64,000 nucleotides of DNA from Anaerolineaceae bacterium (GTDB taxonomy: Bacteria; Chloroflexota; Anaerolineae; Anaerolineales; Anaerolineaceae): positions 1 to 64,000 of the forward strand of contig JAENYZ010000003.1 in the NCBI GenBank assembly GCA_016841525.1, given 5' to 3'. The notes under the pieces were generated by a model. It saw nothing but the letters and a program-made list of their open reading frames with translations, did no database searches and was not told where the DNA came from. The position numbers and the translations under genes are program-made. Positions 51,855 to 61,275 of this stretch are shown one piece after another (the stretch's first letter is position 1; every line of letters starts with the position of its first letter).

Positions 51855-53069
51855 ATGCACATCCTGCTGATCCACCAGGCCTTTGCGGCTTTGGACGAAC
51901 CCGGCGGCACACGCCATCATGAACTGGCACGACACCTCGCCCAACAGGGACACCAGGTGACCATCATCGCCAGCCCGGTCAGCTACCTCACCGGAACAAG
52001 CAGAACGGAAAAAAGCCGCAAACAAATTGACGATTTGGGTGTGACAATTATCAGAAGCTTTACCCTTCCCGCCTTGCATCGCTCCTTTATCTGGCGGGTG
52101 TTCAGCTTCTTCAGCTTTATGATCTCATCCTTCATCAACGGCTTGTTCGTTAAAAAAGTAGATCTTGTCTGGGGCACCACACCCCCTATTTTCCAGGGGC
52201 CAACCGCATGGCTGCTTGCCCGTCTCAAGAACAAACCCTTTTTACTTGAGGTGCGCGACCTTTGGCCTGCCTTTGCCGTTGCTGTTGGCGTATTGAAAAA
52301 CAAACCACTGATCCGGCTGTCAGAATGGCTTGAAAAGTTCCTTTATAAACACGCTGACCATGTGATGGTCAACTCACCCGGGTTTATTGACCATGTTAAA
52401 GCCAGGGGCGCAGAAAAGGTCTCACTGATACCCAACGGCGCTGATCCTGATATGTTCGATCCCCAATCAGATGGCCTAGCTTTCCGAGAAGAACATAACC
52501 TGGATGAAAAATTTATTGTTTTATACGCAGGCGCACATGGGTTATCAAACGACCTGGATGTGGTCTTGGAAGCAGCAGCGCACCTTAAAAGCCGCGACGA
52601 TATCCTGATCCTTTTGCTGGGATCAGGCAAGGAAAAAACACGACTGCAATCCCTGGCAACCGAAAAAAGATTGGACAATGTCTTATTCCTTCCGCCAGTG
52701 CCTAAGCTTGAGATGAAAGAAGCGCTTGCAGCATCAGATGCTTGCCTGGCGATATTAAAACCGATTGAGATGTATAAAACGACCTACCCCAACAAGGTCT
52801 TCGATTACATGGCAGCCGGTAGAGCGGTGATTTTAGCAATTGACGGTGTCATTCGAGAGGTGGTTGAAGCAGGAAATGCCGGGATAGCAGTTCCCCCCGG
52901 AAATCCAAAAGCCCTCTCTGATGCAATTTATGAGCTGGCGTCCGACCAAACAAGATGCCAGAAATTAGGTGAAAACGGCAGGAAGATCATTGAGAATCAA
53001 TTTTCACGCAAAGAACTGGCGGATAAATTTACCGCGCTGCTGGAATCAGTAAGGAGGATGTATGGTTGA
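51855..53069 (+). CDS. Glycosyltransferase family 4, WbuB-like
   Basis: This 404-residue retaining GT-B enzyme has an N-terminal half starting [37 protein letters not shown], as in WbuB-type L-fucosamine transferases. The C-terminal half has [48 protein letters not shown] and the donor-site [21 protein letters not shown] with the E-x7-E-like acidic pair. It adds a sugar to a lipid-linked oligosaccharide on the cytoplasmic face. Sitting after the bi-domain oxidoreductase and heparinase genes, it completes the conserved three-gene set. It overlaps the response regulator gene by 8 bases. Confidence 0.92.
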
Positions 53070-53778
53070 TAAAATTTTAGTTGTTGATGACGAGATTTCC
53101 CTTCAGGAAACACTGGCTTATAACCTCAAGAAACAAGGTTATGATGTCCTGACAACGGGGGACGGCAATGAAGCCCTCGAAATAGCACGTGAACAAAAAC
53201 CTGACCTGATCATCCTGGATGTGATGCTGCCAGGCATTGACGGCTTTGAGGTTTGCCGAATATTACGCAAGGAGATGGCAACACCAGTGTTGATGCTGAC
53301 TGCCAGGGATGACGAAATTGACCGCGTGGTCGGCCTCGAGGTCGGTGCGGATGATTATCTCTCAAAACCTTTTAGCATGCGTGAACTCATCGCCCGCGTC
53401 AAAGCGATGCTCCGCCGGGTGCGATTGATCCGTGAAGAGATCGATCAGCAAGAGGCGAAGGACGGCAAGCGCAAATCTGAAATTTTAGATTTTGATAATT
53501 TGCGGATAGATATGACCCGCCGTGAAATCCTCGTGGATGAGAAAGTCGTCCCATTCAAACCAAAAGAATATGAGTTGTTAACTTTCTTTGCCCAACACCA
53601 AGGGCAGGTTCTTTCACGCGAGATGATCCTTGAGCGTGTTTGGGGATGGGATTTTATCGGGGACAGCCGCACGGTTGACGTTCACGTACGCTGGCTGCGA
53701 GAAAAGATTGAACGGGACCCTGCTAATCCGCGTCGCATCATAACCGTTCGGGGTGCCGGCTATCGCTTTGAAGGATAG
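53062..53778 (+). CDS. phoB: OmpR/PhoB family response regulator
   Basis: This 238-residue regulator has a receiver domain (phosphoacceptor Asp53 in [10 protein letters not shown], switch Thr in MLTARD, Lys in [11 protein letters not shown]) and a C-terminal winged helix ([52 protein letters not shown]). It is followed immediately by a PhoR-like kinase and then by PstB and PhoU, so it is most likely the phosphate-starvation regulator PhoB/PhoP. GGAGG precedes the ATG, which lies within the end of the glycosyltransferase gene, so phosphate control may share a transcript with polysaccharide genes. A candidate Pho box lies at 55508-55547. Confidence 0.92.
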
Positions 53779-53781
53779 TTG

Positions 53782-55506
53782 ATGCATCGTCAACTTCGAT
53801 GGAAGGTCCTTCTGCCTTTCCTGATCATCTTTGTTTTAATAATAACGATCTTAAGCCTTGTAATCGCGGCTGACCTGCATGACCGCCGCGCGAGATATTT
53901 GCAAGACCAGCTCTCAAATACTGCACAGCTGATCGAAATCCAGGCACGCCCCTATTATGGTGCGCCTGACCAAGCATCCCAACTTGAAGCTTACGCAAAA
54001 CAGCTATCTGAAACTTTAAATATCGAGGTGGCTTTCCTCAACATGGACGAAAGTTTGGTTGCTTCATCAAATTCTGGTGAGGCACCTTCAACCATATTTG
54101 GGCTGACTTCAGCTTTAACAGAAGGACAGGCCTTTGCAATAGTGGAAAACACTGCCGTTTATACAAAAGTCATCCAGGATTCAGAATCTAATGAAGTTGG
54201 TCTTCTTCAAGTGCAAAGTTCCGCGGACTTATTCAGTGACAGCACCGCAGCCATTTTTAGATACATGATCAGCATCCTGCTGATTGGTCTAACAGCAATG
54301 ATCGTCGTGGCTCTGATTGTTAAAGATCGGCAGCAGCTTCCAGCAGAAAAGTTGACCATTGCAGCACAAGAAATGAGCTTCGGTCATTTTTCGGGTCTTG
54401 ATTTCCCAGAAAAAGCCGGGGAATTGAATGATTTGAGCCAAGCGCTGCAGGATATCACACAAAACCTTGGCAAACAAATTGAAACTCTCACCAGTGAAAG
54501 GGGCATGCTCTCAGCAGTTCTCAACCAGATGACAGACGGGGTGATCATCACGGATTCTGAGGGCAGGGTTAAATTGCTCAATCCTGCCGCAGAACGAATC
54601 TTTCAGATCAATCAAAATAAGGAACTGGAACGCTCTATTGTAGAAGTCCTGCGATATCATCAACTGGTAGAGCTTTGGCGCATGGCTAAAGATGGCGATC
54701 GACAGAGCACCATGCTCGAAATTGGACCTAACCACATGTTTTTGCAAGTGGTTGGCATCCCCTTGAAAGCACTTCTGCCTGGCAGCACCTTGCTCCTCAT
54801 CCAGGATCTGACACAATTGAGGCGCCTTGAGACCGTGCGACGTGATTTCATCAGCAATGTTTCCCACGAACTGCGCACACCTCTTGCCAGCATGAAAGCA
54901 TTGGCGGAGACACTCCAGGAAGGCGCTCTTGAGGACCCACCCGCTGCACGGCGTTTCATTTTACGCATGGAAACAGAAATCGATAACCTGACTCAACTGG
55001 TCAACGAACTGCTCGAATTGTCAAAAATTGAATCGGGTAAAGTGCCACTGTCATTCCATCGTATTCAGCCCTGTGAACTGCTTCAGCCAGCTTTTGAACG
55101 AATGGCATTACAAGCAGAACGCGCTGGGCTGAAACTCACATTGAACTGTCAACCTGACCTGCCGGCCGTTTTTGCGGACCCCAATCGCATTACCCAGGTG
55201 CTGATCAACCTGGTTCATAATGCCATCAAATTCACTCCCCCGGATGGTGAGATCTCCCTCAATGCCTACCAGGATGGCGAACAAATTGTGTTTTTTGTCA
55301 AAGACTCTGGTGTTGGGATTGCAAGAAAAGACCTCGGAAGAATTTTTGAACGTTTTTATAAAGCAGACCGAGCCCGTGCTGGCGGCGGTACTGGATTGGG
55401 ATTATCCATATCCAGGCACATGATCGAATCCCATGGCGGATATATTTGGGCTGAAAGCGATGAAGGTGTCGGGAGTACATTCTATTTTTCACTGCCAATC
55501 GCATGA
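53782..55506 (+). CDS. phoR: PhoR-like sensor histidine kinase
   Basis: This 574-residue membrane kinase is the partner of the response regulator just before it. It has a first membrane helix (VLLPFLIIFVLIITILSLVI), an extracytoplasmic domain of about 130 residues, a second helix near 165-185, a HAMP-like linker, and a PAS domain (LSAVLNQMTDGVIITDSEGRVKLLNPAAERIF). The DHp helix carries His362 in VSHELRTPLASMKALAETL, and the ATP-binding domain has N-box LINLVHNAIKFT, G1 DSGVGI, F-box RIFERFYKADRAR and G2 GGTGLGLSI. The presence of PAS and the gene order match PhoR. ATG 53782 is preferred over TTG 53779 because of AAGGA spacing. Confidence 0.92.
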   Translation: MHRQLRWKVLLPFLIIFVLIITILSLVIAADLHDRRARYLQDQLSNTAQLIEIQARPYYGAPDQASQLEAYAKQLSETLNIEVAFLNMDESLVASSNSGEAPSTIFGLTSALTEGQAFAIVENTAVYTKVIQDSESNEVGLLQVQSSADLFSDSTAAIFRYMISILLIGLTAMIVVALIVKDRQQLPAEKLTIAAQEMSFGHFSGLDFPEKAGELNDLSQALQDITQNLGKQIETLTSERGMLSAVLNQMTDGVIITDSEGRVKLLNPAAERIFQINQNKELERSIVEVLRYHQLVELWRMAKDGDRQSTMLEIGPNHMFLQVVGIPLKALLPGSTLLLIQDLTQLRRLETVRRDFISNVSHELRTPLASMKALAETLQEGALEDPPAARRFILRMETEIDNLTQLVNELLELSKIESGKVPLSFHRIQPCELLQPAFERMALQAERAGLKLTLNCQPDLPAVFADPNRITQVLINLVHNAIKFTPPDGEISLNAYQDGEQIVFFVKDSGVGIARKDLGRIFERFYKADRARAGGGTGLGLSISRHMIESHGGYIWAESDEGVGSTFYFSLPIA

Positions 55507-55547: not shown

Positions 55548-55654
55548 AATCAATGCCTATTTTTGAAATAAAAATGTTAAGATTAATTGAACTGCATTGT
55601 TTAGTATCTATCCATGAAAGCTAATTAACCAGAAATAAACAAGATTTGAAATTA

Positions 55655-56545
55655 ATGAATTTAACCAATCAGCAGGAAACAATATCCACCCATCCCCCAA
55701 TAGCACCAAAAGAGAAAAAGATTGAATCGAGGATTCATATTGGTGAAAGTGCGGGGACACCCAGCTTTGAATCCTTACCTGTCAAAATGGCTGCCGTTGA
55801 CCTATCCGTTTATTATGGCAAATTTCGCGCCCTCAAAGATATCTCAATTGAGATTCCGGAAAACAAAATCTCAGCATTGATCGGCCCTTCGGGCTGCGGG
55901 AAGTCCACCTTATTGCGATCATTCAACCGAATGAATGACCTCATCAATGGCACCCGGGTTACAGGACAGGTCTTGCTGAACGGGAAAAATATCTACGAGC
56001 CCGGTGTGGACGTGGTGGACATCCGTCAGCGGGTTGGCATGGTCTTCCAGCGACCCAATCCCTTTCCAATGAGCATATTTGATAATGTTGCCTATGGACC
56101 ACGCTTATATGGCATTCATAAAAAGAAAATCCTTGAGGAGATTGTAGAAGGAAGTTTGCGCAAGTCCGCGCTTTGGGATGACGTCAATGATAAGCTCGAG
56201 CAGTCCGGGTTGGCGCTTTCTGGGGGGCAGCAGCAGCGTTTATGCATCGCCCGGGCAATCGCTGTTGAACCAGCGGTGATCTTAATGGATGAACCGGCTT
56301 CTGCCCTTGACCCAATCTCAACATTGAAGATTGAGGAATTGATGGAAAACCTTAAAGAAGACTACACCATTGTGATCGTAACTCACAACATGCAGCAAGC
56401 TGCACGGGTGTCTGACTTCACAGCATTCTTGATGATTGATGAAGATCGCGCTGGTTGGCTGGTAGAATTCGGCGCAACTGAACAAATTTTTACAAACCCT
56501 CAAAGCGAACAAACAGAACAATACGTCACTGGTCGCTTTGGATAG
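55655..56545 (+). CDS. pstB: Phosphate ABC transporter ATP-binding protein
   Basis: This 296-residue ABC ATPase has Walker [10 protein letters not shown], signature LSGGQQQRL and Walker [13 protein letters not shown]. PstB-specific marks are the phrase [11 protein letters not shown], the Q-loop [23 protein letters not shown] and the ending TGRFG. It powers uptake of phosphate with PstC and PstA and, through PhoU and PhoR, helps signal phosphate supply. An extra 45 residues at the N-terminus precede the domain; family members usually start near residue 1 of the fold. No pstS, pstC or pstA lies in this window, so the channel genes must be elsewhere. ATG 55655 is chosen. Confidence 0.94.
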
Positions 56546-56593: not shown

Positions 56594-57283
56594 ATGCCTC
56601 GTCAAACATTAGATCGAGAAATACATCACCTACAGGATGAAGTCCTGCTGCTGGGAAGCATGGTGGAACAAGCCATGCTGAATGCAATTGACACACTCAA
56701 GCAAAGGGATAAAAAAGCAGCAAGACTGGTATACCTCGATGATGAACGGATCAACGAAAAACGATACGCCATTGAGAACCGTGTTTTGATCCTGTTTGCA
56801 ACCCAACAACCCATTGCCCATGACCTGCGTTTGCTGGCAGCGATCCTCGAAGTGATCACGGAACTGGAACGGATGGGCGATTACGCCAAAGGAATTGCAA
56901 AAATCACTGTCCGAATCAGCGATGATGAAACGCCGATACCGATCCGGGAGATCACTCGCATGGGAGACCTGGCAGTCAGCATGCTTCATCGTGCCCTCAG
57001 CGCTTTCATCAACGAAGATGTCAACATGGCTTACCGGATACCAAAAGAGGATGATCTGGTCGACGATCTTTACAACCAGGTTTATCACAAGAACGTCAAC
57101 GCCATGATTGCTAACCCGGAAATCATTGATCATTCCAGCTACATTATGTGGGTGGTCCACAACATTGAACGCATGGCAGACCGCGTGACCAATATCTGTG
57201 AACGAACCATCTTTATTGCCACGGGTGAATTATTAGAGATTGATATTTCAGATGATGAATGGGCAGATGAGGATGAAAATTAA
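56594..57283 (+). CDS. phoU: Phosphate signalling regulator
   Basis: PhoU couples PstB to PhoR and limits phosphate import when phosphate is plentiful. The 229-residue protein is all helical, with two three-helix bundles each holding the metal-binding pattern: ILEVITELERMGDYAKGIAKI (residues 76-96) and MWVVHNIERMADRVTNICERTIFI (near 185-208). It follows pstB by 48 bases, with AGGAG five bases before the ATG, and is ended by a terminator at 57317. The pair pstB-phoU follows phoBR on the same strand, the usual Pho arrangement minus pstSCA. Confidence 0.94.
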   Translation: MPRQTLDREIHHLQDEVLLLGSMVEQAMLNAIDTLKQRDKKAARLVYLDDERINEKRYAIENRVLILFATQQPIAHDLRLLAAILEVITELERMGDYAKGIAKITVRISDDETPIPIREITRMGDLAVSMLHRALSAFINEDVNMAYRIPKEDDLVDDLYNQVYHKNVNAMIANPEIIDHSSYIMWVVHNIERMADRVTNICERTIFIATGELLEIDISDDEWADEDEN

Positions 57284-57395: not shown

Positions 57396-58370
57396 ATGGA
57401 AACAAAAGATCAAATAGAAATCTATCGTTTCGGCACAGCTTACATCCTTGAGCAGGTCCATCAATTTGAATGCGAAATTGATGGCGCATTAAAGGCAAAA
57501 GATATTGAGTATGTCCATCGAATGCGAGTTGCCTCCCGCAGGTTGAGGACAGCGCTGAATCTCTTCAGTTTGTACTTGCCGGATGACACTGCTCAAATCT
57601 GGCGGCGCGAATTTAAAGGTATCACAAAGGCTCTAGGTCAAGCCAGGGATTTAGATGTCCAAATTCAACTTATCAAAGGCTTGTTGATGGGAGATGTGGC
57701 GGGTGAATATAAACATGGCTACAGGCGCCTTTTATTAAGGCTAAAACAAAATCGAAAAAAAGCGCAGGAAAATGTCAAGTCCTCCATTGAGGTTTTACAG
57801 GCAAAGGGGACACTCAACAGGATTCATACCGTTCTGAAAATGCCGGGGGAAGAACCTGTCTCAATTTATCCACCCGCCTTATACCAGGCGGCATCCGAAT
57901 CAATCCAAAAAGGACTGGAAAATTTCCTCAGCTACCAGGGAACCATTTATGCTCCAAATAACGTTAAGCCTTTGCATGCCATGCGCATCGCCGGCAAGCA
58001 TTTGCGGTACACCATGGAAATTTTCGCGCCCCTTTACCAGCAAAGCTTGCTCCCTTTTGTTGAGATTATGAAAGAAATTCAGGATCAGCTGGGTGAAATT
58101 CACGATTGTGATGTGTGGGTTACCTGGCTGCCTGAATTTATCGCGCTGGAACAAAACCGAAGGCAAGGGTATTTTGGCCATGCCAGGCGAGTAAGAAGAT
58201 TGCTCCCCGGGATTCATCATTTAATTGAAGATCGGAAACTCGCTCGACAACACGCGTATAATACTTTTATAGAAAACTGGCAAAAACATAAGGATGAACA
58301 AACCTGGGAGAAATTAGCAGAATTAATTGACCCATCTTTGGCGACCTTTTATCAAAATCAAAGCCTGTAG
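57396..58370 (+). CDS. CHAD domain protein (polyphosphate-binding)
   Basis: This 324-residue all-helical protein has two CHAD repeats, each with the conserved His and Arg/Lys cluster: YVHRMRVASRRLRTALNLF (near 40-60) and PLHAMRIAGKHLRYTMEIF (near 195-215), and HDCDVWVTWLPEF after the second. CHAD domains bind inorganic polyphosphate through these basic surfaces and localise to polyphosphate granules; they often accompany phosphate or polyphosphate genes. No CYTH domain is fused here. It lies just after phoU, on its own after a terminator, and just before a metallophosphoesterase, which fits phosphate storage. Binding of polyphosphate is inferred from the family. Confidence 0.93.
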   Translation: METKDQIEIYRFGTAYILEQVHQFECEIDGALKAKDIEYVHRMRVASRRLRTALNLFSLYLPDDTAQIWRREFKGITKALGQARDLDVQIQLIKGLLMGDVAGEYKHGYRRLLLRLKQNRKKAQENVKSSIEVLQAKGTLNRIHTVLKMPGEEPVSIYPPALYQAASESIQKGLENFLSYQGTIYAPNNVKPLHAMRIAGKHLRYTMEIFAPLYQQSLLPFVEIMKEIQDQLGEIHDCDVWVTWLPEFIALEQNRRQGYFGHARRVRRLLPGIHHLIEDRKLARQHAYNTFIENWQKHKDEQTWEKLAELIDPSLATFYQNQSL

Positions 58371-58391: not shown

Positions 58392-59966
58392 ATGAAAATC
58401 ACCCTCATTTCCGATATTCACGGTAATTTACCCGCCCTCAAAGCCGTCCTGCGCCACGCCCAACATCTTGCGGCAGATCAAATGATATTAAACCTGGGCG
58501 ACTTAACGGGTTACGGTCCGCATCCTGAACAAGTGGTGGCGTGGTCAAAAAATGAACGGGTCATGAACATTCTCGGGAATTATGACAAAAAAGTCATCAG
58601 TAAAGCATATCGAAAGACGGGATGGCAAAAAGTCAATAACCCGGATAAACGTGCCATGTTTGCCTGGACATACCGAGCGCTTTCAAAGAAATCCATCAAA
58701 TATTTACAAACCCTTCCAGAATCACATCAGCGTAAAATTTCAGGTAAACATATCCTGATGACGCACGGCAGCCCAGCATCAATCAGTGAACATTTAGGGG
58801 CGGACACGCCTGATGAACGGCTGGCTGCCCTGGCTGAGATGACGGATGCTGATATCATTCTATGCGGCCATTCCCACATGGCAATCAAACGAAAAGCAGG
58901 AAATACCTTGTTTATCAACCCGGGCAGCGTCGGCAGATTGGATGACGGTGATCCACGAGCCAGCTATGCCGTATTAGACATTCAGGATAAAGAGGTCTCA
59001 GTCAATTTTTACAGAGTGCCATATGACATCATGTCTGCCGTAAATGCCATGCGTATGACAGGCCTGCCAGAAATCTTTGCACAAATACTGAGACAGGGCT
59101 TGAATTATGACGATGTTAAGTCCAATTTCAACAACCCCTCCAAGTCTTACACCCTGGAACCCAATGGGACACTGACCATGTTAACTGATTTCGGACTTCA
59201 GGATCATTTTGTGGGCACGATGAAAGGTGTTATCACCAGTATTGCACCTCAAGCAAACATCATCGATATCAGCCACCAGGTTCGACCACAGAATGTCCGC
59301 CTGGGTGGGCACCTGCTGGCACAAGCGCTGCCTTACTTCCCCGCCGGCACAGTTCATGTGGCAGTGGTAGACCCCGGGGTGGGCACCCAACGACGTGCCC
59401 TTGCAGGCCAAATTGGCGATCACTTCTTTGTTGCACCGGACAACGGCCTGCTTACGCCCATCTTGGAGCGCGCTCATGGAACTGGAGAGACCATCGAAAT
59501 CATCAGCCTGAACCAGTCAAAATACTGGCTGCCTGACCCAAGTACGTCCTTTCATGGACGGGATATCTTTGCGCCTGCTGCCGCCCACCTTGTAAACGGC
59601 ATGCCGCTGGATAGGCTGGGCGATAGGATTGACGACCCCATCATGATGGCATTGCCCCAACCGTCATTGGGGGACCAGGGATGGCTGGGCGAGGTGATCA
59701 TGGTGGATGTTTTTGGGAACCTGAGCACAAATCTCAGGGGGGATTTATTCGAAAATAACATTGGGGATATAAACGTGATAATCAAAGGCAAGCATATTCG
59801 CGGACTCACAGGCACCTTCGGGGATGCACAGGATGGTGACCTGATCGCAACCATTGACAGCAGCGGTTACCTTTCAATTGCAATCGTCAATGGTGACGCT
59901 TCAAAAACCCTGGGTGCAGATATTGGAACCCCGGTTCAGATCATTTTTTCATCAAAGACAGCATAG
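58392..59966 (+). CDS. Metallophosphoesterase - SAM hydrolase (DUF62) fusion
   Basis: This 524-residue protein joins two enzymes. Residues 1-230 are a YfcE-like calcineurin phosphoesterase with all metal motifs: SDIHGN, NLGDLTGYG, LGNYD, MTHGSPAS and CGHSHMA. Residues 260-524 are the S-adenosyl-L-methionine hydrolase/hydroxide adenosyltransferase fold (DUF62), starting LTMLTDFGLQDHFVG, with IIDISHQVRPQNV, VDPGVGTQRRAL, FVAPDNGLLTPIL and FHGRDIFAPAAAHL. That enzyme splits SAM to adenosine and methionine. The product adenosine is not a phosphoester, so the two activities are not obviously sequential. ATG 58392 lacks a clear ribosome site; TTG 58377 is a possible earlier start. It begins about 20 bases after the CHAD gene. 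Confidence 0.92.
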   Translation: MKITLISDIHGNLPALKAVLRHAQHLAADQMILNLGDLTGYGPHPEQVVAWSKNERVMNILGNYDKKVISKAYRKTGWQKVNNPDKRAMFAWTYRALSKKSIKYLQTLPESHQRKISGKHILMTHGSPASISEHLGADTPDERLAALAEMTDADIILCGHSHMAIKRKAGNTLFINPGSVGRLDDGDPRASYAVLDIQDKEVSVNFYRVPYDIMSAVNAMRMTGLPEIFAQILRQGLNYDDVKSNFNNPSKSYTLEPNGTLTMLTDFGLQDHFVGTMKGVITSIAPQANIIDISHQVRPQNVRLGGHLLAQALPYFPAGTVHVAVVDPGVGTQRRALAGQIGDHFFVAPDNGLLTPILERAHGTGETIEIISLNQSKYWLPDPSTSFHGRDIFAPAAAHLVNGMPLDRLGDRIDDPIMMALPQPSLGDQGWLGEVIMVDVFGNLSTNLRGDLFENNIGDINVIIKGKHIRGLTGTFGDAQDGDLIATIDSSGYLSIAIVNGDASKTLGADIGTPVQIIFSSKTA

Positions 59967-60051: not shown

Positions 60052-61275
60052 ATGGCAATTAATATTGAAAAAATTCGAGAAGATTTTCCGATTTTATCGA
60101 GATCTGTTAATGGAAAACCCCTCACCTACCTGGATAATGCAGCAACAACACAAAAACCGCAGACGGTTATCGATGCCATTGTGGATTATTACACAAATTA
60201 CAACAGCAACATCCATCGCGGGACACATCACCTCTCAAACCTGGCAACCGAAGCCCATGAGGCGGCTCGCAATACGATAAAGGATTACATCAACGCCAGG
60301 CATGACCGGGAGATCATCTTCACCCGGGGAACAACAGAGGCAATAAACCTGGTCGCTTCTTCCTTTGGGCAGGCGTTTATAAAACCGGGCGATGAAGTCA
60401 TTGTCACAGAATTAGAACACCATTCCAATTTTGTCCCCTGGCAGATGATATGTGAGCGGCAGGGTGCCCATTTCAGGGTTGTCCCTTTTGATGAAAACGG
60501 CGACTTGCAATTGGACGTGCTTGAAAAATTATTATCCGATAGAACGCGCATCCTTGCCTTCAACCACGTCTCCAATTCACTGGGCACCGTCAATCCCGCG
60601 AAAGAAATCATTAAGATGGCACATGATGCAGGGGCGGCAGTGCTTGTGGATGCTGCCCAATCTGTTCAGCACATCGAGCATGATGTTCAGGATTTGGATG
60701 CAGATTTTTATGCCTTTTCCGGGCACAAAATTTATGGACCGACCGGGATTGGTGTTCTTTACGGAAAAGAAAAATGGTTGGATGCAATGCCGCCTTACCA
60801 GGGGGGTGGCGAAATGATTGACCAGGTGTCCGTTGAAAAGACCACCTATAACAAAATCCCCTTCAAGTTTGAGGCTGGGACGCCCAACATCGTGGGTCCG
60901 ATTGGGCTGGCTGCAGCCATTGATTACATTAACAATTTCAATTTTGATGAGCTGATCGCCCATGAAGATGACGTGCTTCAATACGGCTTTGAAAAGCTGG
61001 GCGAGATCGACGGCCTGAAAATTTACAGCCAAGCCAAACGACATACCAGCATCATCGCCTTTAATGTGGAAGGTATCCACCATTATGATTTGGGCACCTT
61101 GCTCGATACCCAGGGCGTTGCCGTGCGCACCGGGCATCACTGCACACAGCCGATCATGACAGCCCTTGGCGTCGAAGGCACCGTCAGGGCATCCCTTGCG
61201 CTTTATAACACCAAAGCCGACATTGACTCACTTGTTGCTGCCATCAGAAAAGCCCTTAAGATGTTAGGAAAATAA
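60052..61275 (+). CDS. sufS: Cysteine desulfurase SufS
   Basis: This group II cysteine desulfurase is 407 residues long. It takes sulfur from cysteine using PLP bound to Lys226 (SGHKIYGPTG) and holds the persulfide on Cys364 (RTGHHCTQPIM); these positions equal those of E. coli SufS. ATTQKP and TRGTTEAINLVA are typical. The SufE gene follows after 3 bases, so sulfur transfer to SufE is the likely next step in Fe-S cluster assembly. SufB, SufC and SufD are not in the window; they may lie elsewhere. GCAAAGGACACT precedes the ATG. Confidence 0.96.
   Translation: MAINIEKIREDFPILSRSVNGKPLTYLDNAATTQKPQTVIDAIVDYYTNYNSNIHRGTHHLSNLATEAHEAARNTIKDYINARHDREIIFTRGTTEAINLVASSFGQAFIKPGDEVIVTELEHHSNFVPWQMICERQGAHFRVVPFDENGDLQLDVLEKLLSDRTRILAFNHVSNSLGTVNPAKEIIKMAHDAGAAVLVDAAQSVQHIEHDVQDLDADFYAFSGHKIYGPTGIGVLYGKEKWLDAMPPYQGGGEMIDQVSVEKTTYNKIPFKFEAGTPNIVGPIGLAAAIDYINNFNFDELIAHEDDVLQYGFEKLGEIDGLKIYSQAKRHTSIIAFNVEGIHHYDLGTLLDTQGVAVRTGHHCTQPIMTALGVEGTVRASLALYNTKADIDSLVAAIRKALKMLGK

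Follow-up and report, generated by a model that had tools for sequence, protein, structure and literature searches.

It has been reported, in the excerpted text of PMC12120602, that a DUF62 enzyme prefers the off-pathway (R,S)-SAM epimer as substrate, that in published structures of the family the active site lies between the protomers of a trimer, and that adenosine shifts StDUF62 toward the trimer while leaving its activity largely unchanged. According to excerpts of PMC6537752, CHAD domains bind polyphosphate and often occur in operons with polyphosphate enzymes. In the titles and abstract openings covered, where subscription papers were thinly represented, the literature on DUF62/SAM hydrolases and (metallo)phosphoesterases contained no description of a fusion of the two, and that on polyphosphate and such phosphoesterases contained none of a link to a metallophosphoesterase (MPE). 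Both halves of the protein analyzed here come from known superfamilies; what is new is a domain architecture seen in one genus, and an MPE subfamily that gene context places in polyphosphate metabolism.

The window, that is, the whole stretch of 64,000 nucleotides analyzed from an Anaerolineaceae bacterium, contains a single uninterrupted open reading frame which begins with ATG and encodes an MPE followed by a DUF62/SAM_HAT part (Table 1). A mechanical alternative TTG start lies 15 bp upstream of this ATG. The domain pair had been proposed from the sequence alone, and Pfam bore it out, with Metallophos_2 (residues 1–200, 2.4e-27), SAM_HAT_N (4.2e-56; 189.2 bits against a gathering score of 26.3) and SAM_HAT_C (4.7e-20; 72.1 bits against 25.5) all above their gathering scores; the DUF62/SAM_HAT part as a whole covers about residues 258–520. 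The stand-alone MPE of a relative (G013) has 244 aa, and stand-alone DUF62 proteins begin at a point corresponding to about residue 257, so that the fused protein can be read as two complete proteins plus about a dozen residues. An AlphaFold monomer of the fused protein, based on an alignment of five sequences, had a mean pLDDT of 40.5, too low for the model to be drawn on.

Table 1. Features of the fusion locus, in window positions.
Feature	Positions	Strand	Evidence or remark
Response regulator (putatively PhoB-like, named from its position)	53062..53778	+	Response_reg, Trans_reg_C
Sensor histidine kinase (putatively PhoR-like, named from its position)	53779..55506	+	HisKA, HATPase_c
PstB	55646..56545	+	TIGR00972 above cut-off
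PhoU	56594..57283	+	Pfam; TIGR02135 above cut-off
CHAD-domain gene, 21-bp gap to the fusion downstream	57396..58370	+	PF05235, 5.3e-50; conserved upstream neighbour
Fused gene, MPE + DUF62/SAM_HAT	58392..59966	+	524 aa
MPE half, residues 1–244	58392..59123	+	ends at about the point where the G013 stand-alone MPE (244 aa) ends
Putative linker, about residues 245–257	59124..59162	+	placed from the stand-alone MPE end and stand-alone DUF62 starts
SAM_HAT_N, residues 261–410, with D327, R334 and H388	59172..59621	+	Pfam
SAM_HAT_C, residues 433–516	59688..59939	+	Pfam
SufS-type cysteine desulfurase, first gene 3' of the fusion, 85-bp gap	60052..61275	+	Pfam, NCBIfam

Genes in this part of the window follow the order response regulator, sensor kinase, PstB, PhoU, CHAD, fusion, SufS, SufE and SurE. 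The phosphate-related setting noted earlier from CHAD, PhoU and SurE thus held, and relatives of the MPE half were found to travel with CHAD, PPK1 and HD genes as well. The SufS-type cysteine desulfurase probably has a function separate from that of the fusion. Scans of the locus for promoters (6 sites, 9.1 in shuffled sequences) and for terminators (3 sites, 4.9 in shuffled sequences) gave no excess. Some variation in gene content was observed among relatives. A tandem pair of thymidylate-kinase-like genes lies between PhoU and CHAD in many of them (L036:2681-4126 and others; in L036 one member scores just above and the other just below the dTMP kinase cut-off) and is absent from this position in the window genome, G006, G008 and some others (G035, G102, G139). 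Besides, three genomes (G004, G007 and G012) carry a gene of about 600 aa between the fusion and SufS (L034:3241-5043, L035:3731-5530 and L036:8455-10245). Pfam identifies the L034 and L036 genes as PfkB kinases, and the latter also has a weak Q_salvage match. In G012 the fusion is followed by a 212-aa protein with no Pfam match and then by an AbiEii-type nucleotidyltransferase (L036:6923-8376), possibly a toxin-antitoxin pair.

The best PDB match of the DUF62 half was 2zbu (203 bits over residues 263–517), and 2cw5 and 1wu8/2wr8 were also matched. As in the (R)-SAM hydrolase family (PF01887 and PF20257), both Pfam domains are full length and the Asp-Arg-His residues are present. The motifs read TDFG, VDPGVGTQRR (D327, R334) and FHGRD (H388); we take D327, R334 and H388 to be equivalent to the water-activating triad Asp68, Arg75 and His127 of PH0463. 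Unlike the (R)-SAM hydrolase equivalogs, however, the DUF62 domain of the window is the C-terminal half of a fusion and falls below the NCBIfam equivalog cut-offs (NF058624, 192.6 vs 350; NF053629, 163.6 vs 470), as does a stand-alone DUF62 relative (L102). We therefore describe this half as working like an (R)-SAM hydrolase and do not file it as an equivalog. A fluorinase/chlorinase identity was ruled out: the TIGR04507 score was 90.9 against a cut-off of 400, and the protein was closer to SAM hydrolases.

The MPE half passes the model for the YfcE-type subfamily (TIGR00040, 71.1 bits against a cut-off of 56.25) and has its metal-ligand residues in common with these enzymes. Its nearest solved structures, 3rqz (90 bits), 3qfm (60 bits) and 1nnw, are mostly without a named function, and the first two align across most of the half. 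The database title of 3qfm reads only "putative uncharacterized protein"; we take it to be a streptococcal Ap4A hydrolase/phosphodiesterase. The window motifs are SDIHGN (D8, H10), GD (D37), GNYD (N63, D65), H125 and GHSH (H160, H162), so that D8, H10, D37, N63, H125, H160 and H162, presumably the metal ligands, are all present. SDIHGN and GHSH had been named correctly at the outset, while the third motif needed correction: it is GNYD, lacking the His of GNHD. Of 22 aligned sequences, counting that of the window, 20 have Tyr at this position, compared with GNHD in 3rqz and GNWE in 3qfm. Since 3qfm has Trp here, the missing His need not exclude activity.

The window's genus (g1, Brevefilum by its named relative) is represented by 16 genomes, ten of which carry the fusion, always at one locus (G000, G002, G003, G004, G006, G007, G008, G009, G011 and G012). 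The nine genomes other than the window's have both domains in one frame, at 50–87% identity to the window protein and with a truncated second half in G011; two of the nine match public contigs (Brevefilum sp. C14-21 and Anaerolineaceae bacterium 46_22). This sharing of one locus by ten genomes rules out an assembly or read error at the junction, and with it the in-frame stop or misassembly near 59150 that the preliminary description had allowed for. Of the six genus members without the fusion, G013 carries a stand-alone MPE at the same position; the other five gave no MPE match at 1e-40, three of them being only 66–76% complete. Outside the genus, no full-length fusion match was present among the matches listed for 61 relatives. 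Likewise, none was found in 147 family genomes (E≤1e-70), in 400 order genomes (1e-80; up to three candidates scored per genome), among the matches listed (to about 6.6e-56) for 396 class genomes (1e-45; up to three candidates per genome) or in 400 phylum genomes (1e-75; up to three candidates scored per genome). These draws overlap, a much more diverged fusion could escape at such thresholds, and coverage beyond Chloroflexota consisted of one peptide-pattern scan. A widespread fused architecture was thus not seen outside g1 at the thresholds used, and the suggestion of a lineage-restricted arrangement proved right on a narrower scale than Chloroflexota, namely one genus in the genomes searched.

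Gene neighbourhoods provided the main clue to the MPE half. Unless Pfam is named, neighbour labels come from BLASTP against a small set of reference proteins, and family counts refer to the 37 family genomes whose MPE match reached 1e-40. A CHAD gene immediately precedes the MPE, in the same orientation, in 33 of these 37 loci, all ten fused loci included (G016 and the window locus were counted by direct inspection, outside the neighbour table). The exceptions are G036, G109 and G111, the last two with MPEs that are 33–35% paralogues, and G099, whose locus is cut by a contig end. Directly downstream, 14 of the 37 loci have an HD protein (PF21447 type, Ppx/GppA domain III), which in G148 is a 102-aa piece, and a separate DUF62 gene is present at the MPE locus in 4 of 27 unfused family cases, all from genus g11. 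At class level, 8 of the 14 MPE-only loci among the matches listed have PPK1 as the gene immediately upstream, in the same orientation (label Pfam-checked in four of the eight), and the other six do not; among these listed loci, G974 has a PhoR-like kinase upstream, and G1026, G992, G1075 and G877 have no labelled polyphosphate neighbour. PPK1 is also a convergent neighbour of the MPE in G058, at order level. Furthermore, in G914 (L118:1855-3240), also one of the listed class-level loci, an MPE of the same subfamily (47% identity to the window's) carries one further domain at its C-terminus, in this case an HD domain of the Ppx/GppA domain III type (461 aa), whereas the partner in the window is DUF62.

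The window's MPE half differs from its solved YfcE-type relatives in sitting in a CHAD/PPK1 neighbourhood. Its subfamily adjoins polyphosphate modules (PPK1, CHAD, Ppx/GppA) in most family loci and in the eight listed class-level loci, although the MPE itself has no Ppx/GppA match in Pfam. Because its relatives travel with CHAD, PPK1 and Ppx/GppA-type HD proteins, polyphosphate metabolism appears the best assignment for the MPE half, nucleoside polyphosphates being an alternative substrate; a neighbourhood of this kind is a pointer to the substrate and not proof of it. The MPE-CHAD-PPK1-HD arrangement nonetheless nominates a bacterial MPE subfamily as a polyphosphate enzyme. The window genome (3.2 Mb in 9 contigs) has the fusion once, together with a separate DUF62 gene (47% identity), a separate MPE (35%), one PPK1 match and two PPK2 matches, both PPK2 matches away from the fusion locus. 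In contrast to the fusion, the MPE paralogue of this genome (L143, 31%) has no labelled polyphosphate neighbour.

Both halves had been described as looking fully active. This stands for the motifs of the window protein and not for all ten fusions. Eight of the ten retain the DUF62 triad together with TDFG, VDPGVGT.RR and FHGRD. The G009 protein, whose 519-aa frame stays open, has TDSS, MNAAQGPQPR and AHLWGVLCS in their place; the G011 protein has TESP for the first motif, lacks the second and third, and stops after 403 aa. G009 and G011 have long DUF62 branches (1.46 and 2.65; no other fusion exceeds 0.42). Their MPE halves are much less unusual, with branches of 0.43, the longest among fusions, and 0.26, and keep the checked motifs. 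The 260-residue DUF62 domain of G009, still open after loss of its active site, hints at a retained non-catalytic role. The MPE site is not invariant across the subfamily either, as judged from the alignment. N63 is replaced by Asp in G004, G007 and G012, where the DUF62 half is intact, and in the stand-alone G013, and G004 has LAHASL in place of MTHGSP. The 22-sequence alignment contained N63D in four sequences (L036, L029, L109, L112), H160N in two (L109, L112) and D8E in one (L111), and some relatives with changed metal-site residues sit in CHAD loci. Since Asp may still bind metal, MPEs with N63D are not called dead. Both sites are canonical in 5 of 10 fusions (G000, G002, G003, G006 and G008). 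Among G000, G006 and G008, dN/dS was 0.16–0.22 for the MPE and 0.18–0.23 for the DUF62 half, low values which indicate constraint on both halves in these genomes; six other pairs were set aside, since in each of them one half or both had a dS that exceeded 1.2 or could not be computed.

With regard to origin, the DUF62 halves of all ten fusions form one group (support 100/99). The fast-evolving G009 and G011 were left out of the AU test and its tree because of their long branches; the remaining eight still grouped together (87/99), the bootstrap support falling from 100 to 87. Shorter duplicates (L077, L078, L079) and a fragment (L046_6502) had been dropped from the DUF62 tree, and a contig-edge fragment (L103) from the MPE tree. 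The grouping of the DUF62 halves is consistent with a single fusion event, which would suffice to explain it. In the MPE tree, the stand-alone G013 protein falls with the MPE halves of the fusions (99/100); its locus either lost the DUF62 half or predates its gain. In g11 (G025, G100 and G101), PhoU, two thymidylate-kinase-like genes, CHAD, MPE, an HD protein with Ppx/GppA domain III and DUF62 follow each other on one strand, and G099, of the same genus, shows MPE-HD-DUF62 up to its contig end. DUF62 is thus the newer partner at the MPE locus, present in g11 as a gene of its own, the second one after the MPE. Loss of the HD gene from a g11-like order would join MPE and DUF62, and an HD match directly after the fusion occurs in none of the ten fused loci. 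Since maximum-likelihood trees separate the g11 operon DUF62 genes from the fusion group, a step in which these neighbouring genes fused is not proven; since a single clade of both was not rejected (AU p 0.393), we do not claim two separate recruitments of DUF62 by the MPE locus.

We consider it about an even call that the protein is a two-headed house-cleaning enzyme with independent modules, an (R)-SAM hydrolase and a phosphoesterase acting on polyphosphate or nucleoside polyphosphates. Two complete genes would have been joined, most simply once, in the ancestor of part of the genus. The N-terminal head would be a metal-dependent phosphoesterase of the polyphosphate module, cleaving polyphosphate or nucleoside polyphosphates such as Ap4A, and the C-terminal head a SAM hydrolase, most likely one that splits off-pathway (R)-SAM into adenosine and methionine. 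The DUF62 head should trimerize, so that one trimer would carry three phosphoesterase heads. The heads are envisaged as acting independently, with no channelling, and their link as regulatory and spatial rather than as a shared pathway, through co-expression with pstB-phoU-CHAD and probably a common site at CHAD-coated polyphosphate. Independent heads leave the fused order in ten genomes without explanation. It is possible, though fairly doubtful, that the fusion is a neutral read-through which arose when an intervening gene was lost between co-transcribed genes and had no functional effect. Such an origin fits the whole domains and short linker, the g11 genes separated by one HD gene, the decay of the DUF62 half in two genus members and its absence from the locus in a third, and the presence in the window genome of another, ECF-linked DUF62 gene (L144). 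However, the fusion has been retained in 10 genomes while its intact halves diverged to as low as 53–65% identity, both halves are constrained in the closest genomes, and the maximum-likelihood tree does not put the fusion DUF62 beside the g11 operon gene.

The open 519-aa frame of G009 and the loss of DUF62 catalytic motifs in two fusions could also be read as signs that the DUF62 half is a ligand-sensing and oligomerizing module, in which adenosine or SAM would induce a trimer with altered MPE activity and so link adenosyl metabolism to polyphosphate turnover. Adenosine does favour StDUF62 trimers with little change in activity (excerpts of PMC12120602), and the MPE has another fused partner elsewhere, the HD domain of G914. 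We regard this as unlikely, given a catalytic triad intact in 8 of 10 fusions and purifying selection in the three closest genomes; besides, truncation in G011 and the lack of a DUF62 half at the G013 locus suggest that the MPE can do without DUF62. Still less probable is the specific version in which DUF62 was recruited as an adenosine/SAM-dependent assembly switch, the SAM site having since gone in two lineages and an oligomerizer having been left in one; if true, adenosyl metabolites would set polyphosphate turnover. A metabolic pair for phosphate starvation, in which SAM-derived adenosine and phosphate from polyphosphate or nucleotides would be turned into ATP by way of a kinase or PPK2, seems very improbable to us. 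The PPK1 and PPK2 matches in the genome and the PstB-PhoU-CHAD setting agree with it, but no adenosine kinase is shown at the locus, the unassigned PfkB genes near the fusion in G007 and G012 lie outside the window genome, and both PPK2 matches are elsewhere. For two earlier suggestions, a device that tunes SAM or adenosine levels and the removal of a phosphorylated SAM-derived compound, no specific evidence emerged; the DUF62 enzyme described in the excerpts of PMC12120602 points to (R,S)-SAM hydrolysis. A natural fusion that sets a SAM hydrolase within a polyphosphate/Pst locus offers a genetic clue to the conditions under which the cell wants SAM hydrolyzed, and the natural series of separate, fused and decayed forms renders both this idea and the assignment of the MPE subfamily to polyphosphate testable.

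Several observations concern DUF62 genes outside the fusion. In G863 (L117:456-2333) a DUF62 protein has a 369-residue N-terminal extension that matches no Pfam (E≤0.001) or NCBIfam (E≤0.01) model. Stand-alone DUF62 genes located away from the CHAD locus adjoin ECF transporter genes in 10 of 12 loci with labelled neighbours (L144:4347-8319, on C4 of the window genome, and L028, L030, L046, L099, L100, L101, L104, L105 and L106), the remaining two being L102 and L142. The adjoining genes encode an S component (PF07155), an ABC ATPase and a CbiQ-type T component, not all three at every locus, and this linkage offers a second neighbourhood clue to DUF62 function.
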